A stretch of DNA of 54,341 bases from Endomicrobiaceae bacterium. GTDB taxonomy: Bacteria > Elusimicrobiota > Endomicrobiia > Endomicrobiales > Endomicrobiaceae. The position numbers and the translations under genes were made by a program. The DNA lies in the NCBI GenBank assembly GCA_028711215.1, contig JAQTSO010000001.1, positions 58,340-112,680 on the forward strand, given 5' to 3'. Within the stretch, counting starts at the first letter, position 1. Each line of letters begins with the position of its first letter. Positions 3,621 to 39,500 of the stretch are shown here, piece by piece. Under the pieces are notes generated by a model. The model had not been told where the DNA came from. It did no database searches and was given only the letters and a program-made list of their open reading frames with translations.

Positions 3621-3623
3621 TTT

Positions 3624-4505
3624 TTAGTAACGTTTTAATAATCCGTCAATTAATCCCTTATATATGTTTTTAATTTTGATTAGTTTTTGTTTTTCAAAAA
3701 ATAATATTTTTAAAGGTGCAAACAAAAGAGAACTTCTCAGTAACATAAGTGACGTATTAAACGGGGCATAGAAAAAATATGTTCTAATCATATATACCGC
3801 ATTTTTTGAACTGTAATATCTTCTTTCCGGCGACAAATTTGCGATTTTAAAAAATAATTTATATACGGGGTTGCCGAGTTTATGAAGAAAATTAATGTTT
3901 GTTGCAATTATGCATTTATATCCTTTTTTTCTTAATTTAAAACAAAAGTCAACATCTACTTTGTCTATAAATAATTTTTCTTCAAAAAAATCTATTGAGT
4001 CAAAAATTTCAGTTTTCATTAAACCGCCGGATGTTATAATAAAGGGTTTATTTTTCCAAATAATATTTTCAACAGCCGGAAATGAATTTTTTTCTACATT
4101 TGTCTTAAATCCAGAATGGTCAATTTTCTCTTTATATTGGGGAGCAATTAACATTATTTTATTTTTATCCGGTAATCTTTCATATGCGGATAAAAGTAAT
4201 TGGTATGTTCCTTCAATAAATTCACTGTCTTGGTCCAATGTCAAAAGCCATTTGTATTTATTAGCTATTGCGTATTTTGCACCCTGATTCAATGCTTTTG
4301 CAATTCCATAATTTTTGTCATTATAAATAATTTTAACTTCTTCAGGTAAACCTTGCAGGATTTTTTTTGATTTTTCGCAACTGCTGGCATTGTCTATAAT
4401 AATAACTTCATCAACCTGATTTTTTATTGACTCATATAATCTGATGATTGATTCATCAGGTTCGTAACTTACTATAACAGCACATATAAGTTTGTCAGAT
4501 GTCAT
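3624..4505 (-). CDS. Glycosyltransferase family 2 (rhamnosyltransferase-like), paralogue 1
   Basis: A 293-residue GT2 enzyme for polysaccharide assembly. It shows ICAVIVSYEPDESIIRLYES at the nucleotide-binding start, IIIDNASS near residue 40, LLTLDQDSEF (metal-binding Asp pair) near residue 90, and FIDKVDVDFCFKLRKKGYKC in the acceptor region. The C-terminal part is hydrophobic or amphipathic, as in RfbF/WbbL-type rhamnosyltransferases. It is a close paralogue of the gene at 5605-6474: long stretches are identical, for instance around YNDKNYGIAKALNQGA. Only a GT9 gene separates the two. The gaps to its neighbours are 3 bp and 10 bp. Confidence 0.88.
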   Translation of the reverse strand: MTSDKLICAVIVSYEPDESIIRLYESIKNQVDEVIIIDNASSCEKSKKILQGLPEEVKIIYNDKNYGIAKALNQGAKYAIANKYKWLLTLDQDSEFIEGTYQLLLSAYERLPDKNKIMLIAPQYKEKIDHSGFKTNVEKNSFPAVENIIWKNKPFIITSGGLMKTEIFDSIDFFEEKLFIDKVDVDFCFKLRKKGYKCIIATNINFLHKLGNPVYKLFFKIANLSPERRYYSSKNAVYMIRTYFFYAPFNTSLMLLRSSLLFAPLKILFFEKQKLIKIKNIYKGLIDGLLKRY

Positions 4506-17440: not shown

Positions 17441-17533
17441 AAAATCCCTTGTAACAATTTTACATAAAGTATCAAATTTATTGATATTGTTCAAACAAAA
17501 AATAAAAAAGCAAAAAAGTGTCTTTTGAGTTTT

Positions 17534-17595
17534 CACAAATTTTTCACAAATTTTTATAAAAAACCATTGAAATAATAATGAGTTTATACTAAAAT
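17534..17595 (+). promoter_or_regulatory. Promoter of the giant-protein block with 11-bp tandem repeat
   Basis: TTGAAA at 17567-17572 and TAAAAT at 17590-17595 are separated by exactly 17 bp. Immediately upstream, CACAAATTTTT is repeated twice in tandem (17534-17544 and 17545-17555), a possible activator or UP-element site. The predicted start is near 17602; AGAGG at 17609-17613 serves the ATG at 17620. The rest of the 17441-17619 gap shows nothing else. Confidence 0.6.
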
Positions 17596-18154: not shown

Positions 18155-21100
18155 ATGAAAAGCAGAGTTGTTAAAATTCCATTTTTAAAAATTTGTTCGG
18201 TTGTTACTGCCATTTGTTTTTTGGTATCAACAATTGGAAATAATTTATATGCCTCTGTAATAACTGCGGATGTTTCTCAATGTAATAATATATTTGAAAG
18301 CATGAGTGTTATCAAACAGGAATATGGAAAGGTAACTGCTATACAAGACAGTTCAAGTGATGTTACTGTAGTAAATATACAGGACTTACATTGTCATGAA
18401 CAAACACAGAGAAATATAAGCGAAATTATAAAAACATTGGATAAAAATTATTCTCTAAAATCTATTTTTATAGAAGGCGGATACGGACAAATAGATGTAT
18501 CATGGGTAAATAAAGTAAAAGATGAAAAAATAAAAAATTTAATAACTGAAAAAATGCTTCAGGATGGTTATTTAACCGGTGCGGAATATTATGTAATTCA
18601 AAATTCCAAACACAATCTCTTGAAGGGAATAGAAGAACGGGATATCCATCAGTCAAATTTAGACAGACTCTCAAAAATAATGAGGAAACAGCCGGAATAT
18701 AATTCTGTTATGTCAAGAGTAAACAAAGAAATCGAAGTGTTGAGCAATATTTATTTAAATGAAAAAAACAAAAGATTTTCCAGAAAAATCAATGAGTACA
18801 GAAACGGAAAAACAGACACATTAAAGTTTTACAGACTATTAGAAAAATATGTAAAAAAAATACAGTCATCTCCGGATAAATACAATAATATCGTTTCAAT
18901 AAATTTAGAAGATTATCCTAATATTTCTAAATATCTTGATATTTCCGGCCAATCAAGAGATGCAAATCCGAGACAAGTCAGTATAGAAATGCAAACGCTG
19001 GTAAATGTTATTAAAAATAAAATACCTTACGTTTCATATAGAAAGCTTTTAGATGTAACAAATAATTTTAACGATACAGAAAAATTGGTGGAGTTTCTGG
19101 CAAAATTTTGCGACCAGTATAATATAGACTTGTCAAAAGATTTCAAAGAATTAAATAAATTTTTTACTGCAAACAGATTAAATCAGAGATTAAATCCGAT
19201 TGAACTGGTAAACGAAGAAAGAAAATTAATAGAACAAATCAGAATGGCATTGTCATATGATAATACCGAATATGAAATTTCCTATATAAATGACTTTGCA
19301 AAATATTTTGATGATTATCTGACTTATTCACTAACATCATCTGACTGGAAATATGTTAAACAGGATTTTGAAAAATTTAGATTATTTTACACAAAATATG
19401 CAGTTGTTGACAGGATTAATGAAATATCTTCAGACATAGATTTTATAAATAAATATTATGATACTAACGATATCAGAAATGATATTTTTATTTCCAATGT
19501 GTTAAATAATGAAAATCCTCAACAGAATTTGAATCCTTTAAGGACATCAGAGGAAATATTAAAACAATCAAAGGAAGTTGTAGTTGTAATTACAGGCGGT
19601 TATCACAGTGAAGATTTAAAATCAATGTTTGCCGACAGAAAAGTTAATGATATTGTTATAACTCCAAATGTAGTCGGTGATATAAAGAATGCCAATAAAA
19701 GATACGACAGTATTATAAGAAAACAAACATCAATACAATCAAATGCATTGGCATTCAGGATTGCCTCATGTCTGTCAGATGAAAATCAAAAAAATTTAAT
19801 GGTTAAAGTTGCAGTTGAGATTTTAGGCAAAGATAATATCGTACAAATACAACAGTTATTAGGCAAAGATATTGATATTTCCAAAATTGAAGATATTGAA
19901 ATTGATGAACAAAAGAAATCAGATGTTCAAAATTTAATACAAACAACAGTTAATTCTTTAGTTGATGCCTTGCCACAAAAAGCAGGGCAGAATATATTCA
20001 ATCCAGATATTGACAATATTTTAACAGAAATGAGTCTTAAACTTTACGATATGGGATTTTATTTTGAAAATGGGGCTGTGTATGAAATAGATTCATCCGA
20101 ATACAAAGATAAGGATTTGTTCGGTATTCCGGTAGAAGTATATTCAAGAATGTTTGCAAGTCTGCAAAAAGCAATGCTTAAGACAGAACAAATAAGGGAT
20201 GGCATATCATCCAAACTCCCAACAGATAAAAATATAAAAATTCAATGGAGCAGTTTTCCTGACAAAGCATTTGTTTTAATTCAGGAAATTTTATTTAGGG
20301 CATTTCCGGCATTAATTTTTATTTTTAATCCGGTTATAGGTATTCCTCTTTTTGTTATATCGCAAATGGTTTCTTTAAGCTTGGAAATTTTTATACAGTG
20401 GAAAGCATATCAAAAATTAGACGTTAAAAATCCTGATTTTTTTAAAAAATACGTAAATAAACTGCCTTTGATAACAATTTTATTAACCGCTCCTTATGCC
20501 GTCGCACTTGCAACCAATATTTTATATCTGCCTATAGCACTTGTTTTAACAATCGTTATACATTATCTTTTTGTGAAAAAGTTTTCAGTAAATAAAACAT
20601 TTAATAATAAAAGTGTTTCCCCGTTCTTGTTAGCCCCGTCTATGGGTATTTTCTGGAGGGCTACAGGAACTATAGAACGTTATAGAACTGCATTAAAGAA
20701 TAGAAACGATAAGAAAGCCGGTTCTGAAAAATATAAATTAAAAAAAGACGTCAGCTACGAAACCATATTGAGAGATCAGAACAACAGCACTGCTCTTGAA
20801 ACTATAATCAAAAATGAACAACTGGATGTTAAATACAGGCTGTTTGCTTTAATGTATCTAAAGACAAACAATCTTGATATTTATAAGGGAATTACAGAAA
20901 ACGTCATTGATAAGGAAATTACAGAAAAGATTAAGAAAGATTTTAAAAATTCTCTGCAAAAAAATAAAATTAAAAATAATTTTGATTTGCAGGCTAATCT
21001 TACCGGAATATTTCTTATTTTAGATGATATTTTGCACGAACAGCTTCATGGTAATTCATACAGGATTTATGAAGAAATACAAGATGCCGTAATTGTAAGA

Positions 21101-24100
21101 TACGGCATGGCGAGTGCGGTTGCCAATGATGATTTTATTTTCGGAGCGGTAGATTATGAAACATTGGCTCACGAACTTGGACATAGAATTCTTAAATATT
21201 CTTCAATGGAAGGTGATTTAACTTTAGGAGAATTATTTGCGGAAACAGTTTCAAATCTTATAGCGCGGGAGTTTAACATCATTCCTTCCAAAAATAGTGC
21301 GCAACTGTACGGATTATTTGATCCTAATGTTAATTACATCCGCGTTTTTCAGGAAGAGCATGAAGCAGCAGACGGGTTTTTAAATTTAATAAAGCAATCA
21401 ACAGAAAAAAATCCAAATTGGTTAGTGCTTATAGATACTATCATAAATTATGGCTATTATAGAGAAGGGGTTAAACGTCCGTCCGCACAGGGAGCGATTT
21501 TAAAGGATATATTGGTTGGATACGAAGAAAGATTAAAACAAACAGATGAATCCGATATAGTTGATTTTGCAAAGAAAAAAACGGCTAAAACCGGCATAGT
21601 AATGGATATTCTTAAAGATATCAAAGAAAAAAATCCTTATCAATACGATAATATTTTGAAAAAAATCAGGTCAAAGGCAAAGATTCAAAAATCTTATCAG
21701 CAAGAAAATATTGATAAGACTAAATTTTGGCAAAGCAAATCAAAAGTTGAAGAACTGTTCAATATTATTGAGGCAATATTTTCTTCAGAAAAACTTTATG
21801 ATTTTGAAATTATAGCGGCAATATTCAGCAGTCCTGATAATATAGATTCTGTTTTAAATGATATGTTTGACGTAATTTTTAAAGATACAGATTATTCTAT
21901 GTATGATTTTGAAAATTTATACAAAATAAAATCGCTGATGGCACATGACAGAACGTATACGTCCAAAGAAGAGTTAGAACAATATCTTAAACCTATTATA
22001 GATTTGATTACGTCTTCAAGGCGGACAGAACCAACGAAAGATGATTTTATTAATTTGAAAAAAAACAAAAGATATACGTTGAAAAAGAATTTCCGTTTAA
22101 TGATAGTTGAAAATTTTAATAAACTCGGTCTGCCTGAATTAGTAGATACGCTTTTTCCGCAGAAAACGTATGATACAAATAAAACTGGTTCTAAATTATC
22201 AATATTTGATGCATTGAAAAGCAAAAATTCAATATTTGCTTTTTTGGCAAAAACAGCGCCGGTTTGGGAGGAGATAGTATTCAGGGCGATCCCTTCGCTC
22301 ATTACAATATTTAATCCGTTTGTTGGGATACCGTTATTTGCAGTATCACAGATAGCATTTTTATTTTCGCATACAATAGTTAAATGGTTGACTTACAGGG
22401 ATTCGGCAGGCAACAGATTAAATTTTGCAAGTATTTTGAAAAATGATTTGAAAAATCTTTCGCTTCCCGCACTTACAGTATCAATCCCTTATATAATTTC
22501 AATGATTGTCGGTTCGGTGTTACCGATTGCAGTAATAACGTCTATAGCCATACATTATTTGCACAATAAAATAAATCCTCAAAATCCTATGGAATTATTT
22601 TCTTCGGATAATATGACTCCTGACAATATAGAGCAGATTATGCAGCGTTATGCAAAGATGCTCGGGTCTGACAGATATGTCAAAGAAAAAATAAAAATAA
22701 TTGATAAAAATTTAGTTTACCGTTTGGTTCAAACATCGTCGGATTCGCATCAAACGCTGGTAAATATAATAACTAAAATGCAGTATGTGGATCCAATGCT
22801 CATAAACCATATGGAATCTTATGAATATGTTTCTGATATTTTTGAAGCAAGCGATGCTTTGTTGCAATATATAGGAGGCATGGGTTTTGATTCCTATAAT
22901 TTCAATCTTTTCTTTAAGTTAAGAAAAAGTGCAGGAATCAAGAATGAAGAATTTTCAAATATTTGGTTAGCAAATATTATACGTGATGATATCAAAATGC
23001 AGTATTTAGACAGTGTTACGTTAATGGGATTGGAAACAATTTTAAAAATATTCGGCCCCGAAAGAAATCTTGATACAATCCAATATTTGTTTAACAAACT
23101 GTGTTATGCAGACAGTTTTGATTTTAATAAATTTTTTAAGTTAGTAAAAGAAAATGATTTAACAAAAAATCAGAATAAACTCAAATTATTACAAACAAGT
23201 TTTGATAACGGCTTTGAGGACAACGCTGATGAAATACTCGGTTTTTCCGATGTTGAAACAGCGGCTGTAATTGAAGTGTTGGATGACAATGATAATAAAA
23301 CAGCATTGCTGAATTTCAGATTATTTTCCGAATTAAAAGAAATGCTGGGCGTGCAACCGGATGATAAGAATAATATACGTTTCTTGGCAAAATACTGTTT
23401 CAATAAAGGAAATATTGTTGAAACCGGAAAACTTACGAATAAGTTGGACGAAAATATTTTTGTGCAAAATTTAAAAATAATATTAAAAAATGAAAATAAG
23501 GAATATATTTTGACATCTCTTCTGGCAGACTTGACTGTTGCCAATATCTATTTAAGTGACAGTCAGGCGGAACAGATTATGCGGTTGTTGGAAGAAATGA
23601 CTAAGATGGATATTAAAAATCTTGCCGTAAGCAATGAAAATCTGGCACTTAAAGTATTTCTAAGTCCCGCTTTTGTCACTGTTTTTAACAGTCAGGTTTC
23701 TAAAGAAAATTTCAAGAATATTGACAATATGATTCAAAGGTACAGAAGGGCAATAGCCGTCGGCATATTTATGAACCAACTTTTGAACGGCAGAGAGGAA
23801 CTTTTAACCCCGGAAAATTTTGATAAAATTGTAAAGATATCAACGGATGCATATTTTTCAATACTTGAACAATGGTTTAATAAAAAACTTGCAGACAAAG
23901 ATTCTGTTGTAACTGCAATATTTCATGATGAAAGCGCCGATATAGTTTTTAAAGATATACAGGGAGACAGATTTAATCCTGAAATTTTAAAGAAATTTTT
24001 AAATAAAATCGGAATTGATACAGATACTAATGAAAATGTAAAAATTTTGCAGAGATCAAAAGATCCCGGCGTAAAGTTTAAAATACTTGACAGCATAATA

Positions 24101-27100
24101 AATTCTCCAAAAAACGGTAAAAAGAGCTTGTTCTGGTTTGACGGACACGGGTCAAAAAACGGTTTTTCAATAACCGCAAGCGAACATATATATTTTGAAG
24201 AAATTGCCGATGCGTTGCGTGTTGCGTATACAAACGGTGTAGATTTAAAAAACCTTACACTCGTGTTTAATTCATGCCATTCAGGTGATTTCAAAGATAA
24301 AATTCTTACTATGCTTGAAGAAAGAAGCGTTAAAGATTCTCCGGTAATAATTACCATAGCCGGTCATGAAACCGAATTGGGGTATACCGACATTGTAGAA
24401 CATGATGGCGATAAACTGTTGGTGTCAAACCTTGAATTCAGTATTTTTAATTTATTTGAAAGTTCTTCAAACGCAGATTCAGAAAATAATAATTTATTGT
24501 TAGGCGATTTTATATTGGCACAAAGCGATGTTAATTATTCAAATCCTACAATATCAATACCTCTTACGGAGGATGTAAGAAAAATTATTGAAAAGACTCT
24601 GTCTCAAATAGACAACGTCAACAAACAAGAGACGGATAAGTCCGAAGAATCATCGCTTTTGGTAAGAACCGGAATAGGAATGTCTATAGAAGCTTCTGAA
24701 TCAGTACAGGCAACAATAAAAATGCCTTCAGCTTCTTTGGAATTATCAATATTTGGTGCTTTAAAGAATAAATCAAAAGTATTTTCATTTTTGGCAAAGA
24801 CGGCACCTGTCTGGGAAGAGATATTATTCAGAACCATTCCTTCGGCGGTTACAATATTTAATCCGGTTGTGGGTATATCATTATTTGTTGTGTCACAGAT
24901 AGTATTTTTATTTTCCCATACAATAGTAAAATGGCTGGTTTACAAAGATACGGCAGGCAATAGATTGAATTTTGCAAGTATTTTGAAAGATGATTTTAAA
25001 AATCTGTCACTTCCTACTCTTGCAGTATCAATCCCATATGTTTTAACAATGATAATCAATCCTGTATTTTGGCCGATGGCAGCCGTATCCTCTATAATAA
25101 TACATTCCCTGTTCAATGATAAATTATCCATATTAGGTTATTTTAAAAATATAAAATTAAAAGACAATTTTGATCTTAAGCTTCCGATACAAGCATTAAA
25201 TATAAAAGCAGGAGCCGAAATATTTGTAACGTATCTTGCAAACGACAAACTTATTATTTCAAGAAATAAAGCCGAACTTGATAAATTTTGCGAAGAATAT
25301 ACCGCAAACAAACCGGCACATATTACAAGCAGAATATATGCTAATACGGTAAAAATTATCGTCAAAAATAATGGAACCGTAAACGTAAAACAATTATATA
25401 AAAATAAATTAGAAAGATATCCTCTTACACAGGAACAAAAAAATAATATTACGCTTTTTTACAGTCAGGTTCCGATAAAATCGGAAGAAAAAACCGAAAC
25501 AATTTCTGATAAGCCGGTAAAAGACAACAGTGAAGAAAATATTAAAGATGCATTGATAGATAAAATAGGACCGGTCAATGTAATTGATTTTGATTTTTCT
25601 CAATTTATAACCGGTGAAAAACAAAATGCCGATATTAAAGAAATCCGTGAATATGTGAAATCAATAATTATCGGAAAAGATCTAAGAAATAATTTTATTT
25701 CCGTAACATTTTCTAATTTGACCGATAACGTCGGACTTGATGAAAATAAAATTAAAATTGCCGGCACAATAATATCTGTTTTATCAGATGAATTTAATGA
25801 AATTTTTGCAGATAGCCCGGCAGGTGCTCCGGGAGTTACATATTTTGAAGATATGATAGAAAATGCTTTTGTACACGGCAATAACTTATCATTAAATAAA
25901 AAAATATTTATTTATTTCGGCAATGATAGAGATGTGCTTGTTATTAATTCAAATACTCCTCAGAATAAAACAGTTGAAGCCTTGGCACTTGCATCAAAAT
26001 TGTATTTATACGGATTCGGCTCCGGTATAAAATCCGCAGAAATAGTGAATAATGCCAGGTATGCTATTACTGATTTGATTATGCCCGATAAAACAACAAA
26101 AGAGTTATACATAGCGTATATATCGTTTAAAAAATATCAGAAATTAAAAGCAACATTGCTGGACAGGATATTAAAAAAGATTAATTTGTCCGCCATATGG
26201 CACACAATTGCGACAAGAAATATTGAACGCCAGTATTCTTATACAGTACTTCCGGTTTTAAAAGAAGGAGAATCTGTTATTGCGACAAATTTTGTAAAGG
26301 AAGGTGCGGAATACAGCGATGACTGGATAGAATGCAAGATAAGCAAAAAAGACGGTAAATATATAATAAGTAACATCAATAAAAGAGAAAATAAATTAAA
26401 GTGGGGAATTCCGTTAGAATGGCAGATTCATCTTGATGACAAACTTGAAATAACGGAAGAAAACGGTAAATTTTACGTATGTTCAAACTATAGCGATATA
26501 CGTATTTTGGAACCTCAAAATGAACAAGGTCTTGAAACTGACACTACTGATTATTCAACTCCGCAACAGCCACCTGAATCATTAACTCCTCGTGATATTT
26601 CAACACAACAAGACATTACTCGGAATAACCGTGAATTTGAAAGTCTTTTTAGACTTGTTCACAGAGACAGTATTGCAAAGCCTGTTATAGGAGATTCAGA
26701 GAATTATGGTTACAGATTAAGACTCCAAAAGGCAGGTTTTGAATTGGCAGAAAAGCTGGATTTAAATGAGATGGAAGAATTGTATAAAGACGACGAAGAT
26801 AAATTAAGTTTAATAGGATATTTGAAAATATTAAAGTTAAAAAGAACAGGCGATAATCAAGGTCTAAAATCAATAGTTTATAACGGTCGTTTAAACATTA
26901 AATACAGATTAATGGCATATATGTATTTGAGAGGTAACGGGGTTAACGATTTTAATGATGGAATACTTGGAATAATGAAAGCAAATTTTCTGATAGAATT
27001 ACAGCTTAACAGTTTTAAGATAGATAATAATTTTGATTTAAGCATGCTTGGAGCCGGCATTTTGCTTATTTTAAGCCAATATTTGAGAGACAGTAAATAT

Positions 27101-30100
27101 CTTGATGAACAACAGGAAAGAAATCTTTACGACAATATATCGTATTCTACATTTGTTGAAAAAAACGAGTTTGAAAATACGTCGGCAAATTCAGGAATGT
27201 TTTTTACATCCCCCGACCCGCTGACTATGGCCCATGAAATAGGACATCGTGTATTATTGTTTTATACCGATTCAAGTAAAGGGGTTTCATATTCTACGAT
27301 ACATGAGATATTTGCAAATGTCATATCAGCTGTTTTTGCTGAAAAAGCAGGAATTGGCAGTAAATACTACGAAGATGCATTATATGAATTATTTAATGAA
27401 AAAATGCAATACGATTATGTGCTGCAAGAAGAACACAGAGCATCAAGAGGATTGTTGTATGCTATTACGGAAATTGCAAAACAAATGGGCAAAACTGCAA
27501 AATTTGAAATTTTGGCAGATGCAGTTATCAATTTAGTAAAATCACAAAAAGTTTTGCCAAAGAGACAGTCTGATACAATTAAAGATATTGTATATGAATA
27601 TATGAATATGTTGAGGTTCAAAGATAATTATACCCAGGATGAAATTGCGAAATTTGAAGGATTATTAAAAGAGGAATCTTGGAAGAGTAAAGTCCTTGAA
27701 CTGTTTATGAATTTGAGAAGTTCAAGCGGGACAAGATGGGATTATTACGGGAAAATATACAAAAGAATTATGGATGGAATGAGAGCGTTTGTGGTACAAC
27801 CGGAATCTTACAGATACGGCATGTTGCAAATTGACTACCGTGATGATTTAGTCGTTATAAATAATATTATTATGTCTCAACCCGATAAAATCAATATTGT
27901 TTTACAGATAGTAAAGGATGAATTGAGCCAGGATGATTATTTGTTAAGAACTCAAATTGCAAAATTAATATTTGCCGATCTTATAATATCACTGCCTCAG
28001 ATGAAACAATTAACAAAATATCAATTGGACAGATTGATTCAGGAGATCATAGATAAATTTTTCTCTGATAAAATGGATTATAAAGCATCTGAGATTGATT
28101 ATAATAAAATCAGGATATATGCATTAGGGGAATATTCATTTTTTAAAACAGTTTTGCCGCGTAATTTTGGAGAACGCAACACAACTAAAAAAGATTTATT
28201 CGGAAAGAATTTCTATGAGCAAAAAACATCATATGACGAGAGTTACAAATATGCCGAATCACTTCCTTCATTTGTGCCGTCAATAGATACATTCTTTATG
28301 CTTGCCGGCATTTCCGGGCTTTACAGAAAACTTTTTGATTTTATAGTTAAAAAAATTGCAGGATTAAAACAAAGACCTAAATTCAGCCAAAGTGTTGAAA
28401 ATTACTTAAGTATAGTCAAAAATAATGTGGAAAATAAATTTCTTTTAAAGATCATTTATAATGACAGAGCATCCGTTAAATACAGGTTGTTTGCATTAAT
28501 GAATTTGAGAAACAGGGGATATGACATTAGTGATAAGTCGGTTGTAAATGACATTAAGAGAGAATTTGCCAAAGCAATAAATGCAAACAGTATGCCTGTA
28601 AACAACAATTTTGATTTGAGATCGGTTCTTGCAGGTGTATATCTTTTGTTGGAAAATTTTTCAAGAGAATATGTAGATTCAAAACAAGAAATTGAAATTT
28701 ATAAATCAATATCAAAAGCAGTCGTACTTAGAAGAGGAAAAGAGTCCATAGGTGCCAGAGCAAATATGACTTTTGTATCGCTAAATCCTTTGACTATGGC
28801 ACATGAACTCGGACACAAAATACTTGCTTATACTTCCGAAAGTTCGCTTAAAGATATAACAATTCATGAATTATTTGCAGAGATAACGGCAAATTTATTT
28901 GCAAGAATCACAGGGGTGAAGGAAAAAGAATATAAGGATGTTTTGTACGGATTATTTGATAATTCCGTAAATTATGACGATGTCTTTCAGGATGAACATA
29001 AAGCGTCAACGGGTTTTATAGAACTTTTAAGAATGGTAAGCTCACAAGCGGGTAAAAATCTCAAATGGGATATTTTGGCCAATGCGGTTATTTCATATAC
29101 AAAGAATTCATCCGATCACATTGCAGAAAATAATCAAGGAAAAAATTTAAAAAATATATTTATCGAATATCTTACCCAGCTTGATAAAAATAGGCAGTAT
29201 ACAAGAAGTGATTTGAATTATATGTTTAGTGTTGCACAGAGAGCGACAAAGGGTGAAACAGTTGTAATGGAAATACTTGAAGACATCAAAAAAACAAATG
29301 CTGAACAGTATGAAAATATTTTAAAACGTCTTCAGAGTAAAATAAAATTGCAGAAATCATATATGAAGGGACTTATCCCCAGACTTTTATACAGCAAATC
29401 AAAAATAAAAGAAATTTCGGATATATTTAAGGAATTTTTGGGAATCAAATCTGAATATAAGGATGATGCGGATATTATAACAAAACTGATATTCAGCCAG
29501 CCTAAGAGAATTAAAGATATTTTGAGAATAATTATTAACCAAATTCTAAGTAAAAGAGAATTTTCCAAATATGATTTTGAAAACGTAATCAGAATGGAAT
29601 TTATGTTAAATACAGACAAAATATATTCTTCAAAAAAAGAACTGGACAGTGATATACGTGATATTTTAAACAATATTGTAAGAAACGTCAGTAATGATGC
29701 TTTTCACAGAAACTATAATGTTTTTGACCTCAGTGACTATAAGTATGCAAAAAAATATATTGAAAGAAATAAAGCAGGAACATTGCAGACAAAAAAGACA
29801 ATTGAAATTCTTAATCGTTTGGGAAGTAAAATTTACAATCAGAGAAGTCAGGCTGAAAATTTCAAATATAGCATATTCGGTATTGCAACAGGAGTTGTAT
29901 TGGAAACATTTTCATTTTGGATGCCTAGTTTTATTAAACAACACGAAAATCCTACAAAAACAATGATAATCACAACATGGGTAATAAGGATTCTATCAAT
30001 AGGGGTGGCAGTGGCAGGCGGTTTTATGTTTGTTCCTGCAGTAGTTCCGATAGTTTTGATAGCAACAGAATGGATAACACATTTTGTATATAATCTTTTT

Positions 30101-31621
30101 GAAATAAAGAAAATTGATAAAAATATTTCCGTTAAATTTGAGTCTGTAGATACATTTAATTCAATGCAAAATTTAAGTACGGATTCTGCAATATCTGTAT
30201 TATTGGTAAAAGATATAAAGAATATGGATCCGGATAAACTTATAAATACAGGTTTAAAAGTAAATGGTGAAACGATTTGGCAAATAGATAGAGAAGGAGT
30301 TGTTTCTTTTGGAGCATCTAATACTAATATACAGGATTTAGCTATGGTTCTAAACGGAAGCAGAATTTTAGAAAGACAATTAAGAAAAGTATTAAAATTA
30401 AAAAATATGAATTTAAATGTGGAAAGTTCAGCGGTTATTGATGAAAAATCAGAAGAAATGTATTTTCAAAATACAATTGCAGTTGTTAACAATAATAAAT
30501 ATGTGCAATCAATGCTCAAAGCCTTTAAATCAATAGCATTCATGTATTCTCAAAAAACAATGATATCTTTGGAAGGAGTATCAAATAATAAACTATATCA
30601 ATCATTAACAAACGGGAAGGTTAGAAAAATTATAACTCCTGAACAATTTGAATATATAAAAAGTTTAATTGAAAAAGACAATAAAAATGTATCAGAAGAA
30701 ATACTTAATTTGAGACAACAGGGAATAGAAATATATGTAAAAGAAAATGAATTAACCGATAAGTATAAAGAATACGGGATAATCGGATTGTTGCTTAATA
30801 ATGAAATTTATGATTATTATACAGCTGAAAAAACAGAGATAGAAACCGTGGATGCTCGGATAACACTGCAAGAACTGGAAAGAAAGTTAATCAATTCGGA
30901 AAAACCACTGTTGATAGATATAGCTTCATTACAAAATATTTTTAAATCTACAAGAAATATAGTCGGAGCATATAGCGGGTTAGAGGCATTGATCGGCAAT
31001 ATAAAAATTAAATTCGGATTTAAAAATATTCAGGCAAAAGATATGGAAAATTTTGCATATGCTATAGATATGAATGATATTCCGGCCGTATCTGACGAAG
31101 ATATCAATGAAATGGTTGTTGCGGATATTGTTGGGTTTACGGGTGTATTACAATTGGACGACAGCAATATTATCAGTATAATTTTAAGGGATACAGGGAT
31201 CAATGAAAATAACAAGAAATTATTCTTAAATATTATAAAAGAGAAAGTTTTGCTTAAGAATGCTCAACAAAATAAGGAAAGAGAAGTTAATTTGAAATAC
31301 TTGAAATATGGTTTAAAAGATAAAAAATTAGAAATTTTGCTTGGTAAAGCACTTTGGTTAAGAATACAACTTGCCGGTAACCAAAGTATTGATGGGCAAA
31401 AAAATATAGATGATAATTTGAGCAATTTGACTCCTTTAGAAATAATGAAAAAAATTACAGAATTATCCCAACAGGCTTTTGACAGCAGAGATTCTAAGGC
31501 AATAGATACCATTATAGAATTAATTATGACATGTGCTGAAGAATATAAAAATGACGATATGGTACCGGTGGCAACAAATGATTTATTACGTGAATATAAA
31601 AGCATGTTGGCAGCAGCTTAA
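18155..31621 (+). CDS. Giant exported multi-protease polyprotein (4488 residues)
   Basis: The N-terminus has a signal peptide or anchor (residues 1-35). Domains in order follow. (a) An EreA/ChaN/TIKI-like domain, 60-540: IQDLH with H79, E107, GGYH with H484. (b) A CPBP-like membrane module, 690-810, degenerate (Q710-E711...R715; His replaced by E744). (c) Metallopeptidase module 1: H1006-E-x-x-H1010, with E1026 or E1030 as a possible third ligand. (d) CPBP module 2: E1372, E1373, R1377, H1406, H1467. (e) A caspase-like module: H1998 in DGHG and C2041 in NSCHSG. (f) CPBP module 3: E2221, E2222, R2226, H2255, H2317. (g) A GHKL ATP-binding module: E2569-N2570, H2574-G-N, G2620-F-G-S-G. (h) Metallopeptidase modules 2 and 3: H3027...H3031 and H3550...H3554. 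(i) Two or three membrane segments near 3905-3985, and a C-terminal region of unknown fold. The frame is unbroken. The start is preceded by TTTTGGGG. Known: these motifs define protease and ATPase families. Inferred: they act together, perhaps with self-processing. Confidence 0.85.
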   Translation: MKSRVVKIPFLKICSVVTAICFLVSTIGNNLYASVITADVSQCNNIFESMSVIKQEYGKVTAIQDSSSDVTVVNIQDLHCHEQTQRNISEIIKTLDKNYSLKSIFIEGGYGQIDVSWVNKVKDEKIKNLITEKMLQDGYLTGAEYYVIQNSKHNLLKGIEERDIHQSNLDRLSKIMRKQPEYNSVMSRVNKEIEVLSNIYLNEKNKRFSRKINEYRNGKTDTLKFYRLLEKYVKKIQSSPDKYNNIVSINLEDYPNISKYLDISGQSRDANPRQVSIEMQTLVNVIKNKIPYVSYRKLLDVTNNFNDTEKLVEFLAKFCDQYNIDLSKDFKELNKFFTANRLNQRLNPIELVNEERKLIEQIRMALSYDNTEYEISYINDFAKYFDDYLTYSLTSSDWKYVKQDFEKFRLFYTKYAVVDRINEISSDIDFINKYYDTNDIRNDIFISNVLNNENPQQNLNPLRTSEEILKQSKEVVVVITGGYHSEDLKSMFADRKVNDIVITPNVVGDIKNANKRYDSIIRKQTSIQSNALAFRIASCLSDENQKNLMVKVAVEILGKDNIVQIQQLLGKDIDISKIEDIEIDEQKKSDVQNLIQTTVNSLVDALPQKAGQNIFNPDIDNILTEMSLKLYDMGFYFENGAVYEIDSSEYKDKDLFGIPVEVYSRMFASLQKAMLKTEQIRDGISSKLPTDKNIKIQWSSFPDKAFVLIQEILFRAFPALIFIFNPVIGIPLFVISQMVSLSLEIFIQWKAYQKLDVKNPDFFKKYVNKLPLITILLTAPYAVALATNILYLPIALVLTIVIHYLFVKKFSVNKTFNNKSVSPFLLAPSMGIFWRATGTIERYRTALKNRNDKKAGSEKYKLKKDVSYETILRDQNNSTALETIIKNEQLDVKYRLFALMYLKTNNLDIYKGITENVIDKEITEKIKKDFKNSLQKNKIKNNFDLQANLTGIFLILDDILHEQLHGNSYRIYEEIQDAVIVRYGMASAVANDDFIFGAVDYETLAHELGHRILKYSSMEGDLTLGELFAETVSNLIAREFNIIPSKNSAQLYGLFDPNVNYIRVFQEEHEAADGFLNLIKQSTEKNPNWLVLIDTIINYGYYREGVKRPSAQGAILKDILVGYEERLKQTDESDIVDFAKKKTAKTGIVMDILKDIKEKNPYQYDNILKKIRSKAKIQKSYQQENIDKTKFWQSKSKVEELFNIIEAIFSSEKLYDFEIIAAIFSSPDNIDSVLNDMFDVIFKDTDYSMYDFENLYKIKSLMAHDRTYTSKEELEQYLKPIIDLITSSRRTEPTKDDFINLKKNKRYTLKKNFRLMIVENFNKLGLPELVDTLFPQKTYDTNKTGSKLSIFDALKSKNSIFAFLAKTAPVWEEIVFRAIPSLITIFNPFVGIPLFAVSQIAFLFSHTIVKWLTYRDSAGNRLNFASILKNDLKNLSLPALTVSIPYIISMIVGSVLPIAVITSIAIHYLHNKINPQNPMELFSSDNMTPDNIEQIMQRYAKMLGSDRYVKEKIKIIDKNLVYRLVQTSSDSHQTLVNIITKMQYVDPMLINHMESYEYVSDIFEASDALLQYIGGMGFDSYNFNLFFKLRKSAGIKNEEFSNIWLANIIRDDIKMQYLDSVTLMGLETILKIFGPERNLDTIQYLFNKLCYADSFDFNKFFKLVKENDLTKNQNKLKLLQTSFDNGFEDNADEILGFSDVETAAVIEVLDDNDNKTALLNFRLFSELKEMLGVQPDDKNNIRFLAKYCFNKGNIVETGKLTNKLDENIFVQNLKIILKNENKEYILTSLLADLTVANIYLSDSQAEQIMRLLEEMTKMDIKNLAVSNENLALKVFLSPAFVTVFNSQVSKENFKNIDNMIQRYRRAIAVGIFMNQLLNGREELLTPENFDKIVKISTDAYFSILEQWFNKKLADKDSVVTAIFHDESADIVFKDIQGDRFNPEILKKFLNKIGIDTDTNENVKILQRSKDPGVKFKILDSIINSPKNGKKSLFWFDGHGSKNGFSITASEHIYFEEIADALRVAYTNGVDLKNLTLVFNSCHSGDFKDKILTMLEERSVKDSPVIITIAGHETELGYTDIVEHDGDKLLVSNLEFSIFNLFESSSNADSENNNLLLGDFILAQSDVNYSNPTISIPLTEDVRKIIEKTLSQIDNVNKQETDKSEESSLLVRTGIGMSIEASESVQATIKMPSASLELSIFGALKNKSKVFSFLAKTAPVWEEILFRTIPSAVTIFNPVVGISLFVVSQIVFLFSHTIVKWLVYKDTAGNRLNFASILKDDFKNLSLPTLAVSIPYVLTMIINPVFWPMAAVSSIIIHSLFNDKLSILGYFKNIKLKDNFDLKLPIQALNIKAGAEIFVTYLANDKLIISRNKAELDKFCEEYTANKPAHITSRIYANTVKIIVKNNGTVNVKQLYKNKLERYPLTQEQKNNITLFYSQVPIKSEEKTETISDKPVKDNSEENIKDALIDKIGPVNVIDFDFSQFITGEKQNADIKEIREYVKSIIIGKDLRNNFISVTFSNLTDNVGLDENKIKIAGTIISVLSDEFNEIFADSPAGAPGVTYFEDMIENAFVHGNNLSLNKKIFIYFGNDRDVLVINSNTPQNKTVEALALASKLYLYGFGSGIKSAEIVNNARYAITDLIMPDKTTKELYIAYISFKKYQKLKATLLDRILKKINLSAIWHTIATRNIERQYSYTVLPVLKEGESVIATNFVKEGAEYSDDWIECKISKKDGKYIISNINKRENKLKWGIPLEWQIHLDDKLEITEENGKFYVCSNYSDIRILEPQNEQGLETDTTDYSTPQQPPESLTPRDISTQQDITRNNREFESLFRLVHRDSIAKPVIGDSENYGYRLRLQKAGFELAEKLDLNEMEELYKDDEDKLSLIGYLKILKLKRTGDNQGLKSIVYNGRLNIKYRLMAYMYLRGNGVNDFNDGILGIMKANFLIELQLNSFKIDNNFDLSMLGAGILLILSQYLRDSKYLDEQQERNLYDNISYSTFVEKNEFENTSANSGMFFTSPDPLTMAHEIGHRVLLFYTDSSKGVSYSTIHEIFANVISAVFAEKAGIGSKYYEDALYELFNEKMQYDYVLQEEHRASRGLLYAITEIAKQMGKTAKFEILADAVINLVKSQKVLPKRQSDTIKDIVYEYMNMLRFKDNYTQDEIAKFEGLLKEESWKSKVLELFMNLRSSSGTRWDYYGKIYKRIMDGMRAFVVQPESYRYGMLQIDYRDDLVVINNIIMSQPDKINIVLQIVKDELSQDDYLLRTQIAKLIFADLIISLPQMKQLTKYQLDRLIQEIIDKFFSDKMDYKASEIDYNKIRIYALGEYSFFKTVLPRNFGERNTTKKDLFGKNFYEQKTSYDESYKYAESLPSFVPSIDTFFMLAGISGLYRKLFDFIVKKIAGLKQRPKFSQSVENYLSIVKNNVENKFLLKIIYNDRASVKYRLFALMNLRNRGYDISDKSVVNDIKREFAKAINANSMPVNNNFDLRSVLAGVYLLLENFSREYVDSKQEIEIYKSISKAVVLRRGKESIGARANMTFVSLNPLTMAHELGHKILAYTSESSLKDITIHELFAEITANLFARITGVKEKEYKDVLYGLFDNSVNYDDVFQDEHKASTGFIELLRMVSSQAGKNLKWDILANAVISYTKNSSDHIAENNQGKNLKNIFIEYLTQLDKNRQYTRSDLNYMFSVAQRATKGETVVMEILEDIKKTNAEQYENILKRLQSKIKLQKSYMKGLIPRLLYSKSKIKEISDIFKEFLGIKSEYKDDADIITKLIFSQPKRIKDILRIIINQILSKREFSKYDFENVIRMEFMLNTDKIYSSKKELDSDIRDILNNIVRNVSNDAFHRNYNVFDLSDYKYAKKYIERNKAGTLQTKKTIEILNRLGSKIYNQRSQAENFKYSIFGIATGVVLETFSFWMPSFIKQHENPTKTMIITTWVIRILSIGVAVAGGFMFVPAVVPIVLIATEWITHFVYNLFEIKKIDKNISVKFESVDTFNSMQNLSTDSAISVLLVKDIKNMDPDKLINTGLKVNGETIWQIDREGVVSFGASNTNIQDLAMVLNGSRILERQLRKVLKLKNMNLNVESSAVIDEKSEEMYFQNTIAVVNNNKYVQSMLKAFKSIAFMYSQKTMISLEGVSNNKLYQSLTNGKVRKIITPEQFEYIKSLIEKDNKNVSEEILNLRQQGIEIYVKENELTDKYKEYGIIGLLLNNEIYDYYTAEKTEIETVDARITLQELERKLINSEKPLLIDIASLQNIFKSTRNIVGAYSGLEALIGNIKIKFGFKNIQAKDMENFAYAIDMNDIPAVSDEDINEMVVADIVGFTGVLQLDDSNIISIILRDTGINENNKKLFLNIIKEKVLLKNAQQNKEREVNLKYLKYGLKDKKLEILLGKALWLRIQLAGNQSIDGQKNIDDNLSNLTPLEIMKKITELSQQAFDSRDSKAIDTIIELIMTCAEEYKNDDMVPVATNDLLREYKSMLAAA
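20200..20620 (+). repeat. CPBP-like module, copy 1 (degenerate), in the giant gene
   Basis: Encodes residues about 683-822. The sequence around QEILFRAFP, FNPVIGIPLFVISQ and IHYLF aligns with copies 2 and 3. The first Glu of EExxxR is Gln710, the His of FxxxH is Glu744 (and its Phe is Ser740), and the last residue of HxxxN is Val807. Confidence 0.7.
20760..21700 (+). repeat. HExxH metallopeptidase module, copy 1, in the giant gene
   Basis: Encodes residues about 870-1180. The copy shares with the others a VKYRLFALMYL helix, a NNFDLxxxLxGIxLIL block, AHELGH at 1005-1010 and an acidic helix GELFAE after it, then a GLFDPNVNY...EEHEA block. Confidence 0.75.
22199..22570 (+). repeat. CPBP module, copy 2 (intact motifs), in the giant gene
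   Basis: Encodes residues about 1349-1472 with EEIVFR (E1372, E1373, R1377), FLFSH (H1406) and HYLHN (H1467...N1471), the three CPBP motifs EExxxR, FxxxH and HxxxN. It is roughly three-quarters identical to copy 3. Confidence 0.8.
24746..25120 (+). repeat. CPBP module, copy 3 (intact motifs), in the giant gene
   Basis: Encodes residues about 2198-2322 with EEILFR (E2221, E2222, R2226), FLFSH (H2255) and HSLFN (H2317...N2321). The close match to copy 2 indicates a fairly recent duplication inside the gene. Confidence 0.8.
26810..27760 (+). repeat. HExxH metallopeptidase module, copy 2, in the giant gene
   Basis: Encodes residues about 2886-3202. It repeats the order of copy 1: IKYRLMAYMYL helix, NNFDLSMLGAGILLIL, PLTMAHEIGH (H3027, E3028, H3031), IHEIFANV (E3051), then a LFNEKMQYDYVLQEEHRAS block. 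Confidence 0.75.
28400..29380 (+). repeat. HExxH metallopeptidase module, copy 3, in the giant gene
   Basis: Encodes residues about 3416-3742: VKYRLFALMNL, NNFDLRSVLAGVYLLL, PLTMAHELGH (H3550, E3551, H3554), IHELFAEI (E3572) and LFDNSVNYDDVFQDEHKAS. It is closer to copy 2 than to copy 1 around the zinc site. Confidence 0.75.
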
Positions 31622-33517: not shown

Positions 33518-36500
33518 ATGAAAAAAATCGTATCTGTTTTAGTATCAGTATTTGTGCTTTATTCATTTGTTGCCGTTGATACGATACAAGCATTTGGTAT
33601 TTCTAATCTCAATATGGCTGACCCGGATGTTTTAAAGATAAACCAATCTCTTGGGAATGTATCAAATAGTTTTATTAGTGAAAAACAAGATAAATTAATA
33701 GTTTATATTCAGGATTTGCATGCTAACCCTTCCGTTCAAAAAAATATAGCAAAAATTATCGATAATCTGGATAAAAATTACGGTGTTGATAAAATACTTG
33801 TGGAAGGTGCTCCTTTTTCAAAATTAGATACCGGCATAATAGATGCAGTAAAGGAATATAACTTATCAAATTTGCTTCTCAATGACGGAATATTATCAGG
33901 AACTGAATACTATTTAGCTAATTACAATAAAAACACACCTGTTTACGGATTAGAAAATTGGGATACTTACCTATCAAATGTTAAAAGAGCCGGAAATATA
34001 TTGGCCGAAAAAGAATATAACCGGAAAGTTTTTGATAAATTTGAAAAAGAAATCCACTCAAAATTAAAAAAATCAAAAAAATTATTACCGTATATTGATT
34101 TTGATGTTTCAAATCCGGTTTTGATTGGTGAATTAAAACAACCGATATTGAAATATGATGCTTTGTATAATTATGTTGAACTTTCTCAACAAATCCTGGA
34201 AATAGATAAAAATAAAGTTCAAAAAGAATTGGAAGAATGTCTCAAAGATTTAAAAAACACCTTGACATTTGAAAGTTATAAAAATTTAATTTCCAAATTA
34301 CAGCAATCCGATTACTATCATTATTATCTGAAGTTAAGTCAGCAAATTGCAGACAATAATGAGCTTGCAATAAAATACCGTAATTTATTCCAGTTCTTGA
34401 GATATTATCTGGCACAAAAGAACATAAATAAATACAGTGTTGTAAATCAAAAAAATCAATATTTCCAAGACTATTTGAATTCCTTAGAAGATGAAAAATC
34501 CAAATATGACGAGTTGTTCGTTTTAAAAATGACACAGTTGTTCAAGGCATTTTTAAATCTGAATATTTCCGAACAAGAATATATATTTTTTGTCAATAAT
34601 TATGACAGGTATATAAATCTCATAGATAAAAAAATACCCGGGATTCAGGCAGAATATGATGAAATTTTTGATACGAATGAAATTTTAAAATATCATAAAG
34701 TAAATATTGACAGGACAAAAATATTTTTTGAAAACATATCCGCTTTATTTGAAAATAAATCAGACAATTCAAAGAAGATAACTGTTGTTGTGTCAGGCGG
34801 ATTCCATAGTTCATTGCTGGAATGTTTAAAGGCTAAAAATATATCCTGTTTAATGATAACTCCGGAAATTTCAGAAAATACAAAAGATAATAATTACGAT
34901 AGAATTCTTTTAAGTACAATAAATAATGATTTTCAAGATCAAGCATTGGCAAATATTCTTTTTATTTTGGTAAAAAGCCCTGTTATTCCGCAACAGACAA
35001 AGTACTTTTTTTCAAAACAATTAGTATCAAATCTTATAAAAATATATAAAACAGATAATCCTGAAAGTATTCGCCAAATGTTGTTTTCTGTTGCTGAAAA
35101 ATATAGTATGCAAATTGATGTTGAATACAATAAATCAGAGTTTATAGTTTTTATTGATAAAAATAAAAATATATTTAAGATAAATGACGGAAAAATAGAC
35201 TTAAAATCATCGACATATGTTAAATCCGCTGACATATCTTTAAAATCTAAAATAATTGCCAAAATAAAACAATTCTTCAGTATAGAACAATCTTTGTTTA
35301 TGGAATTAAATTCCAAATACAGGGGCGTTATTTCAAGAAGATCTGACGGTAATGCTTCATTTAACTGGGCACAAATCAATCATTTTTTAAAGAAAAAAGA
35401 TGAAGTATATAAACATATAGTCGATTTTGGAAATGCTTTGCTGGGAAGCGGAAATGCAAAAAAATATGAAGGCGTAGAAATTAAAAAATTCGACAGCAAA
35501 GGGAAAGTTGAACTTAATGAGGACGGTACTCCAAAAATACTTAAAAAGATAAATGTAATTATTGAAGGTGATTTAAACAAATATATTACAGATGAACTTA
35601 TACAGGATATATTTGATGAAATAATGAAAGATTTTGAAAATGATGAAGTATCAAATATCAGAGATACAATTGTAATAGGAATATTATCTAAATCACAGAC
35701 GCTTTTTTCAGACCATGTAAACAGCGGTTTTGTAGGAGTAAATCATGCTATATTTGATATAACTGATGAAGATGTTTTAAAAGCTTTTCTGTATGCCGGA
35801 CTGACACATGAGTTTACCCATGAATTTTCTCCGAAAAAAGTATCAGAAGAAGAATTATTGTTAAATGATGTTAAGTATATCAGACATTCTGTTGCACAAA
35901 TTCTTGATCCGAATATATCCGAAGAACATTATCCCGAATTTTTCAATGAGCAAATTATTAATAGGATTTTTAATGCAACGTCGGGGATTTTCCCGAAGAA
36001 ATCAAGGTTTTTTAATAAGATAAAAAATTATAAAAACAGCATAGAAGATATTGCAAGTATTTTTAACAGAAATGACAAAGGGTATCTCACCGAAAAAGAT
36101 GGTCTTAGATACGGGCAATGGCAACATGCTTATCAGGAATATCTCAAAAACAAATCTGATAATCAGGAAAAGTTTTTTTCATTGTTAGTCCACAGTGATA
36201 ACAGTAAAAATATAGATATGATGGATTATCTGCGTCAGAAGGAAGAAGGATTAAAGGTTGGAAAAGTTGATTCCAGAATACAAAACATATTGTTTGGTGT
36301 GTCCTCCGATGAGGAGCAATTATCAGAAAATGAAAACGGAGATGTAGTGGAATCGTTGAAACAAATTTTGACATCAGCCGGAATTGATGAAGGAATCCAG
36401 GAAGAAATTATGGATGAATTTAAAAAAAATATATATGAATGTATGGAATTATTGTATAAAAGAATGCCGAGATATGCATTTTACAGATTCTATACAGACC

Positions 36501-39500
36501 AAACCTCCGTGCATGAACACGGATTAGGGCACTGTTTGGATGTATTGGCATATTCAATAAAAATTATAGGAAGAAGCGGAGATGTTAATAAATTAATTTC
36601 TTCTTCTACAGATGATAAAATTTCAATAAAGGAACTTGTTTATTCTGTTTTTATGCATGATTTGTCCTGTGTTTTTTTCAGAGATAATCATGAAAAAAAT
36701 TCTGCAGTTTGGAGCAGGGCTATTTTGGAAGGCGTAGAAGACGAAGAAATGATAAATGCCGTATATAATGATTGTTTGGGACATAAAAAAATCGAAATGG
36801 ATCGTTCGTTAATAGGCTGTATCCTGCATGATGCAGATGCTTTGTCGGCAACTTTAAACATGAAAAGAATTTTAAATATTTGGCTGAACCAAGATAACTA
36901 TTTGATGGATAAAAGATTATCAATCAATGAAAGAATTGCCAAAATAAAAGCAGGAATGTATTTATATCAGGATGGCGGTGACGGGGTCAATGATTTATTG
37001 AGACATTATTTAAGGTCTGACCCTGCAAGGTACAAAACAATAGGCGGAGCATCCATTATAAAAACAAGGTTTGATGATATGTATGTAGTCAGAAATTTTC
37101 TTGAAGCTCAAAGAGAATATATTAAAACAAAAAACAATAAACAAGGTAATAAATTTACAGATAGAGATGTTGATGAAGCAATAGAAGTTGTAAACGAGAT
37201 AATGACAATTGAGTTTGAAGGATATGACAAGCAGGAAGGTAAACCAATTATAGTGCAAAATGAATCTTTGTTTACTTTTAAAATAAAAATGAAAATTTTA
37301 TGGCAGATAATTAAATACAAAATATTTAAACAAGATATGTATTTTAACAGAAATATTGTTTTTTCCGACATACATGGCGGATATACCAGATTTTTGGAAT
37401 TAATGTATCAAATGCTTGCATCCAGCAGAGATTTAAAGATTTCTAATTATTTTGAATTGTTGCATAACGGTAAAGATCAAAATGGATATGAAATATCCGA
37501 TGCTGAAATAAGAAGGATGCAGTCTGAAATAGAAACTGATATTTTAAATAAATGGAATGTAAGGGGCAATAAGAGCACTCTTTATATATTGGGAGATATT
37601 CTTGACAGAGGTCCGAAACAGGTTGAAACTTTTATGTTTGTGAAAAAATTGGCAGAGTCGGGCAGGGTCAAGTATGTTATCGGCAATCATGATTTATTTG
37701 CATCAATGAACTTGTTTGGAATGCATTTGCCGATTACAGACAAATTTAAGGGCATACCAAAAGATTATGTAATACCTGAAGGATATATAAATAAAACAAA
37801 AGTTAATATATATCAGGATTGGTACCATAGAGTTACAAATATAAGAGATGTGACAAGATCCAAAGATATGTCTTATTGGTTACAGGTTTTTGCTCAACGC
37901 ACAAAATATTCAACAAATAGACAAAATGAGGTATGGAATGAGGAATTAGCTAAGATAAGTACAGAGTTTAAAAAGAGTTTTGGTTTTGCCCAGCACAACA
38001 GTGTTAAAAATATTCTCTCAAATACCGATAAAAACATTTTTGGACTTGACGAAAATCAGGCAATGTTGGAATTCAATAAAGCTTTTTTTGGTATAAAATT
38101 TGACACTGAAATTTCAACAGGGATGAGAGATGTTGAACAAATGGCTGTCAATTGGTGGATAAATAAATTGGAAGAAGCAAAAGAGTTAAAAGATCAATAT
38201 CAAGAATATGGAAGTTATTGGGATAATGTTATTGAAGTTATAGAAAAAGTTATAGAAGAACAAAAGAAAAAATATCAATATGAAATAAACAACGGAAATT
38301 GGGGCTGGGCTGTTATTGATGCGATGATGTACAGAACCTATGAAAGTATGGAATGGTACGCTTATGATTATATAAAACATAAGGGATGGGGAGAAGCCTT
38401 ATTGAGTCAGATAAATTCCTATTTGGATTTTAAGAAGGGAAGTGAATTAAATAAAAAGCTTAATGATAAATTTATAAATTTTGCGGTGAATAAAGATGTT
38501 AAAAAAAGCGAAATAATGGATATAATAGTTCAGATGGAACATTTAGGTATATCACAGGCGTATACAAATTATTTAACCAAAAAATTAGATATGGCAGTGA
38601 AAGTGCAAAATCAGGAGGAAATAGACAGAATAACAAATTTAATAGATACAAAAATTTCAAGATATAACAGATTGACAGGTTCCGAAAAGTCTTTTGTGAA
38701 ACGTGAACTTTGTGATCTGGTGATACAACTTGATTCTTTAGGTATGCCTCAAATTACGGTTGAGGATTTATTAAAAAAGATTCTTGAATTGCCGGATAAT
38801 GAACGGGCAGGAAGGCAAAAATTAGTAGATGAAAATATAAAAAATTTACTTCAGGAACTCTTGATTTATTCCAATCTGGATAAAAACAATAGAATGATTG
38901 CTGAAATGAGATTGAACGCAATAATGCAAAAGCTGGAAGAGTTAAATGTATCAAAATCCCTTTTGGATTATTTAAACGGCAAGATTGCGCTTGTAATTTT
39001 TACAGCGGATGAAAAAATTACATTTATAAATCAAACGATAAAAACATATAATGATTTGTCGCAATCGCAAAAAGATTCCGCTAAAGCTATGATGTGGATG
39101 TTGCTTTTGGAATTGGAAAATGAGAGGCTTCCTCAAACAATAACGGAAGAAGTGGCAACCAGAATAAAAGCATTGCCGTTAACCGAATTTGAAAAATCAC
39201 AGAAATCTAAAATGAATATGATAGATGATGTGTCATATTTTAATAATGAAGAAATGAAATCCATAATTGATTTTTTCAAAAACAACTTTGCATTATACAG
39301 AATTGATGAATACGGATTTTATTATATGCATGCTCCGTTACCTTATGATGAATATGGAGATGTATCCATCGGACGTGTTGCAGAAGACGGTAAGTTTGAA
39401 GAATTCGATGCAAAAGGGAAAAGAATAAAAGGATTTTATTATAAAGGAGTGCATTATACAGGGGAAAAAATTTGGGACGGTTTTTCAAAAATAGCAAAAG

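Follow-up and report, generated by a model that had tools for sequence, protein, structure and literature searches.

Elusimicrobiota have been reported, by counts of protein length, to be rich in huge proteins, to which no function had been assigned (PMC11573180). For the giant open reading frames (ORFs) of Omnitrophota, the themes reported are mostly adhesion and the cell wall (PMC10066038; PMC12057145). In a separate line of work, caspase-like domains, PrsW domains (distantly related to CPBP) and metallopeptidase domains were proposed to act as auto-processing or releasing peptidases in exported toxins (PMC3482391). Here we analyze a 54,341-nucleotide stretch of DNA from an Endomicrobiaceae bacterium (hereafter, the window), in which one ORF encodes a giant protein with several protease-like modules. 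The features of the locus are collected in Table 1.

Table 1 Features of the giant gene and its surroundings, in window coordinates.
Feature	Residues	Coordinates	Strand	Remarks
Small companion ORF, 166 aa		17620..18120	+	Signal-peptide-like start, C-terminal membrane segment
Terminator-like hairpin with a T-rich run behind it, immediately before the start codon		18108..18137	+	MFE -15.4, z -3.2
Giant modular protein, 4488 aa		18155..31621	+	Unbroken ortholog L044:6713-18301; dN/dS 0.17
Signal-peptide-like N-terminus	1-34	18155..18256	+	Hydrophobic segment 4-29
ChaN/EreA-like N-terminal domain	50-540	18302..19774	+	QDLH, EG, GGxH invariant; constant domain of the family
CPBP module 1 (CPBP1), catalytically degenerate	682-815	20198..20599	+	Motif comparison
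Metalloprotease-like module M1	827-1326	20633..22132	+	HELGH at 1006
CPBP module 2 (CPBP2)	1341-1478	22175..22588	+	EEIVFR/FLFSH/HYLHN
Region conserved in L044	1480-1890	22592..23824	+	dN/dS 0.15
Predicted clan-CD cysteine protease module	1891-2153	23825..24613	+	H1998/C2041; Foldseek; Pfam C13
CPBP module 3 (CPBP3), after the Cys-protease	2191-2329	24725..25141	+	EEILFR/FLFSH/HSLFN
GHKL/HATPase-like module	2450-2675	25502..26179	+	ENAFVHGN and GFGSG boxes (~2569-2625)
Metalloprotease-like module M2	2842-3345	26678..28189	+	HEIGH at 3027
Metalloprotease-like module M3	3374-3880	28274..29794	+	HELGH at 3550, E3572, H3615
Membrane module TM4	3897-3992	29843..30130	+	Conserved E, H, HxxxN (E...H...HxxxN pattern)
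C-terminal domain	4015-4488	30197..31618	+	Common to a subset of giants, 22 proteins
C-terminal tail MLAAA-COOH		31604..31618	+	Tail pattern [MILVF]Lx[AS][AS]
Second giant of the family		33518..40654	+	Start ~33518; ends MLSAA

Results

The giant ORF is a real gene under purifying selection

The preliminary description had claimed a single unbroken frame of 4488 codons beginning with a signal peptide. The ORF is indeed one open frame with an ATG start, and a hydrophobic, signal-peptide-like stretch is present; this hydrophobic N-terminus is the one feature that points to export of the protein. The host genome is a 2.21-Mb metagenome-assembled genome (MAG) of 168 contigs with 8.78% estimated contamination, and an assembly chimera had been named as one of the findings that would undo the earlier account. 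An independent MAG of the same genus, Candidatus Proruminimicrobium quisquiliarum, has the same chain, again unbroken (3863 aa, L044:6713-18301), in the same gene order; its neighbors, a divergent transferase-type gene and the giant downstream, also correspond to those in the window. This ortholog is without the CPBP1-M1 block. In the more distant Ca. Praeruminimicrobium purgamenti, a version of 1829 aa consists of the N-terminal domain, a linker, one M module and the C-terminal domain only. The missing Cys-protease/CPBP unit is thus dispensable for the core role of the gene.

Comparison with the closest ortholog gave a dN/dS of 0.17 for the whole protein, and 0.10 for the N-terminal domain, 0.09 for the Cys-protease, 0.12 for CPBP2, 0.11 for CPBP3, 0.11 for M2, 0.20 for M3 and 0.25 for the C-terminal domain, all of them approximate ratios because dS exceeds 1. 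The codon-position pattern is that of a real gene. Together with the unbroken ortholog, these data establish the giant ORF as a real gene under purifying selection, and exclude a chimeric or decayed frame. The chain contains internal repeats: by fragment comparison, the three HExxH modules, each of ~500 aa, are homologous and 31–40% identical over most of their length, and CPBP2 and CPBP3 are repeats with 70% identity.

A clan-CD cysteine protease module is followed by a membrane module

The caspase-like His/Cys module of the preliminary description is the one for which the fold could be assigned. Its motifs place H1998 in DGHGS and C2041 in NSCHSG, and both residues are invariant in 13/13 close copies; some diverged copies have no recognizable C motif. 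An AlphaFold2 (AF2) model of the Cys-protease together with CPBP3 reached a mean pLDDT of 80.8, with values mostly of 75–96 in the Cys-protease module. When this model was submitted to Foldseek, legumain, PIG-K and caspases were recovered with a probability of 1.00 and a best E of 1.5e-4 (legumain). Pfam C13 was matched by six aligned members of the module, the best at 3.9e-5. The predicted structure and these matches confirm a caspase-haemoglobinase (clan CD) fold, in which the His and then the Cys of the dyad stand at strand ends; the module may be proteolytically active. It was found in 27 of 295 sampled Elusimicrobiota genomes.

What follows this module in the chain is also conserved. A CPBP module lies 24–40 residues after the Cys-protease in 13/13 close copies, and a CPBP or TM4 module 40–97 residues after it in 16/21 diverged copies, so that a membrane module directly follows in 29/34 copies altogether. 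These counts are not independent events, because the copies are related, though the giants that surround them differ.

The three CPBP-like modules proposed earlier are not equivalent. CPBP2 and CPBP3 keep all of EExxxR, FxxxH and HxxxN, motifs that are conserved among relatives, whereas three of the four motif positions are gone from CPBP1 (QE in place of EE, SLSLE in place of FxxxH and HxxxV in place of HxxxN). Scores against the Pfam Rce1-like family (PF02517) were weak for the copies in the window (E 0.14–0.17) and better for the best relative (E 0.0011); a sister giant in the same genome lies over the curated PF02517 cut-off where our CPBP profile also matches. In the AF2 model the CPBP3 part is helical and confident, and the Foldseek matches listed were all of clan CD. 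The motifs and the Rce1-like matches in relatives support the CPBP assignment, the first copy being catalytically degenerate. TM4 was considered as a further CPBP homolog, and its similarity was not significant. Another giant (L084:9836-17116, forward strand) carries three TM4 membrane modules, and no Cys-protease was found in it.

Gluzincin-like, GHKL-like and ChaN-like modules

The three HExxH modules that had been claimed are present by motif, at residues 1006, 3027 and 3550. H3550, E3551, H3554 and E3572 (M3 numbering) are invariant in 27/27 M modules, and H3615 is kept in 26/27. This residue set follows the gluzincin pattern, and we refer to the modules as gluzincin-like. In 2000 shuffles of the same composition HExxH occurred with a mean of 0.024 and never three times; an extra HEQLH at residue 961 is a chance occurrence. 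No zincin fold was recovered: M1, modeled within a long AF2 query, had a pLDDT below 50, and the M-module profile found no match among PDB sequences. Searches of PDB sequences with all five module profiles returned nothing useful, and a Foldseek search of a 1200-aa model against viral structures gave no match.

The proposed ATP-binding module fared similarly. Its ENAFVHGN and GxGxG motifs are present and conserved in relatives, and searches of Pfam and PDB gave no match. We therefore call it GHKL-like, an ATP-binding identity suggested by these motifs.

For the N-terminal domain, previously described as EreA/ChaN/TIKI-like, AF2 returned a model with pLDDT above 90 over most of the domain. Direct comparisons were negative: no Pfam or NCBIfam family matched, including the EreA, ChaN and TIKI families, hhalign against ChaN gave a probability of 2.3, and Foldseek placed EreC among the first structure matches at a non-significant level (E 0.83, probability 0.18). 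Giants of sister Elusimicrobiota families, in contrast, match PF04187 (ChaN), the best at 2.4e-7 and over the cut-off, and these matches fall inside the stretch that our N-terminal-domain profile finds at 1e-19 to 1e-43. Through such intermediates a ChaN-like identity is supported, by this transitive route only, and this part of the earlier assignment stands.

The giants share their ends and differ in their middles

The combination of modules, which had been called unusual, is indeed present, but the protein is no one-off. Its N-terminal domain occurs at a minimum of 13 loci in its own genome, nearly all in frames of 1000–4500 codons. A scan of GTDB species genomes identified 224 relatives; the best 80 of these are all labelled as Elusimicrobia/Endomicrobia lineages, and every one has the domain close to the N-terminal end of a long frame. 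Among 295 sampled Elusimicrobiota genomes, 64 contain the domain, in frames of up to 12,027 aa. It is absent from several small-genome relatives, and in one small-genome relative a copy carries five in-frame stops (G109:C20:17159-18601), which suggests that giants may decay in reduced genomes.

The opposite end is shared as well. A C-terminal tail of the form [MILVF]Lx[AS][AS]-COOH terminates 30 of 35 complete giants and 3 of 404 other ORFs; all three of these control ORFs are pieces of giants, and the five giants without the tail either have a broken or truncated frame or belong to other families. An ssrA-like degradation tag was considered as the explanation of the tail and rejected, as the tail has its L at -4, not -3, and the tmRNA tag predicted by ARAGORN, a prediction that is unreliable here, is unlike the tail of the giants.

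Between these ends the content changes from giant to giant. The second giant in the window has the same N-terminal domain (33629-34972), together with a THEFTHE motif, an HD-like stretch and a Metallophos (calcineurin-like phosphoesterase) domain (E 6.8e-6). A sister giant on contig C27 of the same genome (L151:2-11878, forward strand), which ends in ILKAA and has at least 3959 aa, carries complete NUDIX, PGM/PMM, PGI (E 2e-184) and PGK (E 2.5e-145) domains. Standalone PGI and PGK genes are present in the same genome, and the PGI of the giant is 49% identical to the standalone PGI, with the active-site neighborhoods kept. Giants bearing PGI or PGK recur in several Endomicrobiaceae genera beside standalone genes; these too open with the signal-peptide-like stretch and the N-terminal domain, and their last residues are LRAA, LSAA or LKAA. 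The presence of PGI and PGK indicates that entire cellular enzymes are incorporated into members of the family, of which the protein at 18155..31621 is the protease-rich one. A further sister giant (L157:293-8572, forward strand) has a SecA_DEAD domain (E 4.9e-11) and GA modules. By sequence comparison, the giants are an Elusimicrobiota-wide family defined by a constant N-terminal domain and a five-residue tail, [MIV]LxAA in nearly all complete members, with swapped middles.

Gene neighborhood and leader

The giant has an ABC-F ATPase and the second giant as neighbors. In L044, L045 and L058 the ortholog is immediately preceded by a similar-looking ORF of 158–177 aa, in the position of the companion ORF of Table 1. 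A frame of 809 aa at window positions 15107-17536, which is divergent from the giant and also lies near it in two relatives, appears by eye to join a membrane glycosyltransferase-like portion to a C-terminus that resembles PAP2 phosphatases.

A terminator-like hairpin within 40 nt (16–40 nt) before the start codon was found for 40 of 72 giants and for 6 of 262 control ORFs. Across the hairpins of the window and of the giants in L044-L123 the stem sequences differ and the pairing is kept. Control of the giant genes by attenuation or antitermination is possible.

Discussion

Our preferred reading, to which we assign a probability of about 0.5, is that the protein is an exported, probably membrane-anchored modular giant of the envelope, in which the Cys-protease/CPBP unit processes the chain itself or its sister giants. 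Sec would export the chain, and its CPBP and TM4 modules would keep it membrane-bound. Together with the adjoining CPBP, the clan-CD Cys-protease would make up a single processing unit, cleaving this chain or its sisters at places between modules, and the gluzincin-like modules may be working proteases in the envelope. The gene, its module layout, the conserved catalytic residues, purifying selection, the clan-CD fold, the constant ends of the family and the recurring Cys-protease/membrane-module pair are established, and we infer export, membrane anchoring, activity and cleavage, including self-processing. The closest precedent for such a unit is the proposal of releasing peptidases in exported toxins (PMC3482391). 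Against this reading count the 1829-aa ortholog, which is without the Cys-protease/CPBP unit, the degeneracy of CPBP1, the weak Rce1 matches of the CPBP modules, and the negative fold and database searches for the metalloprotease-like and ATPase-like modules.

The modules could instead act in trans on foreign proteins of prey, a host protist or the diet, the uncut chain serving as a digestive or predatory machine on the surface. Giant surface proteins of Omnitrophota were proposed to function in predation, according to the accessible text of PMC10066038 and of PMC12057145, the latter citing a West-Roberts preprint; within Elusimicrobiota, giants are frequently seen in lineages of the rumen, of digesters and of the termite gut, and three homologous metalloprotease-like modules resemble the multiplicity of substrate-degrading proteins. 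Yet scans of the protein at 18155..31621 and of seven giants of its own genome detected no domain of the carbohydrate-binding, adhesin or glycoside hydrolase type, CPBP proteins are intramembrane proteases, which digest no external protein, and sister giants bear glycolytic rather than digestive enzymes. We consider action in trans improbable, at perhaps half the weight of processing.

Slightly less probable again is that giants accrete modules as polyproteins or scaffolds, in which captured enzymes are largely passive cargo and the protease motifs, inherited from such enzymes, have no coordinated function. The assortment of PGI, PGK, PGM/PMM, NUDIX, SecA-like and other domains in sister giants would fit this idea, as would the quick shifts of module content between genera. 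Passive cargo, however, is hard to reconcile with dN/dS values of ~0.1 in the catalytic modules and with catalytic residues that are invariant across paralogs, and the Cys-protease/membrane-module pair recurs too often for random accretion.

A bolder extension of the processing reading, which we regard as unlikely, would make the giants a new exported polyprotein system. Its members would combine a signal peptide and ChaN/EreA-like front with an [MIV]LxAA tail for sorting or processing, under the expression control of the leader hairpin. The protein at 18155..31621 would be the protease giant, whose clan-CD/CPBP sortase-maturase recognizes the tail or the junctions between modules and releases enzymes, the glycolytic ones included, outside the cytoplasm.

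It is very unlikely that the giant is a polymorphic-toxin-like protein with a constant N-terminus, releasing peptidases and a toxic C-terminal domain. Such toxins typically contain releasing peptidases of caspase-like or CPBP-related (PrsW) type (PMC3482391), but the C-terminal domain and tail of the giants are constant while variability lies in the middle, and no RHS repeats, toxin domain or adjoining immunity gene was found; given the constant C-terminus and the lack of an adjoining immunity gene, the giant falls outside this class as defined. Least credible of all is an assembly chimera or a chance long frame with coincidental motifs, to which the contamination and contig number of the MAG might point: the chimera is rejected by the independent ortholog with the same chain, neighbors and modules and by module copies in at least 12 genomes, and chance by the shuffles, the conservation of the motifs, and a codon-position pattern and dN/dS that are those of a genuine gene.

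The accessible portions of the literature searched hold no description of the N-terminal domain, tail or protease unit, and the family is apparently undescribed. It now gains a definition, by its constant N-terminal domain and C-terminal tail, and a protease unit that recurs and whose fold is assigned. If giants are processed or sorted via their shared ends, a polyprotein strategy new to the literature would be in use in a bacterial phylum common in guts and digesters. Complete glycolytic enzymes with intact active sites lie behind a putative signal peptide in some giants.

Among known systems, the giants of Omnitrophota (PMC10066038) and Elusimicrobiota (PMC11573180) are likewise encoded by single ORFs of great length in which few domains are annotated, and are suspected of a surface or envelope role; the ChaN/EreA-like domain, LxAA tail, Cys-protease/CPBP unit and glycolytic enzymes do not appear in the accessible descriptions of those giants. 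With polymorphic toxins (PMC3482391) it has in common caspase-like, PrsW-related and metallopeptidase domains in a large exported protein, if export is accepted, but there the toxic C-terminus varies. The N-terminal domain has the strand-turn QDLH...E and GGxH layout of the ChaN/erythromycin esterase superfamily (PF04187, PF05139), and differs from it in its length of ~490 aa, a long helical insert and the lack of a direct significant match. Thermolysin-like gluzincins share with the M modules HExxH, a Glu located 18 residues further along and a conserved His beyond it, whereas the M modules are without sequence or structure match and their alpha-helical flanks are unmodeled. EExxxR, FxxxH and HxxxN are common to CPBP2, CPBP3 and the CPBP/Rce1-like intramembrane proteases (PF02517), although the CPBP of the giant are short repeated modules inside a chain, with Pfam scores mostly below the cut-off. 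Finally, the Cys-protease module is like the clan-CD families C13 (legumain and the GPI-transamidase PIG-K) and C14 (caspases) in its predicted fold and His/Cys dyad; it is 11–15% identical to known peptidases of these families and, unlike them, sits in a giant chain with a membrane module after it.
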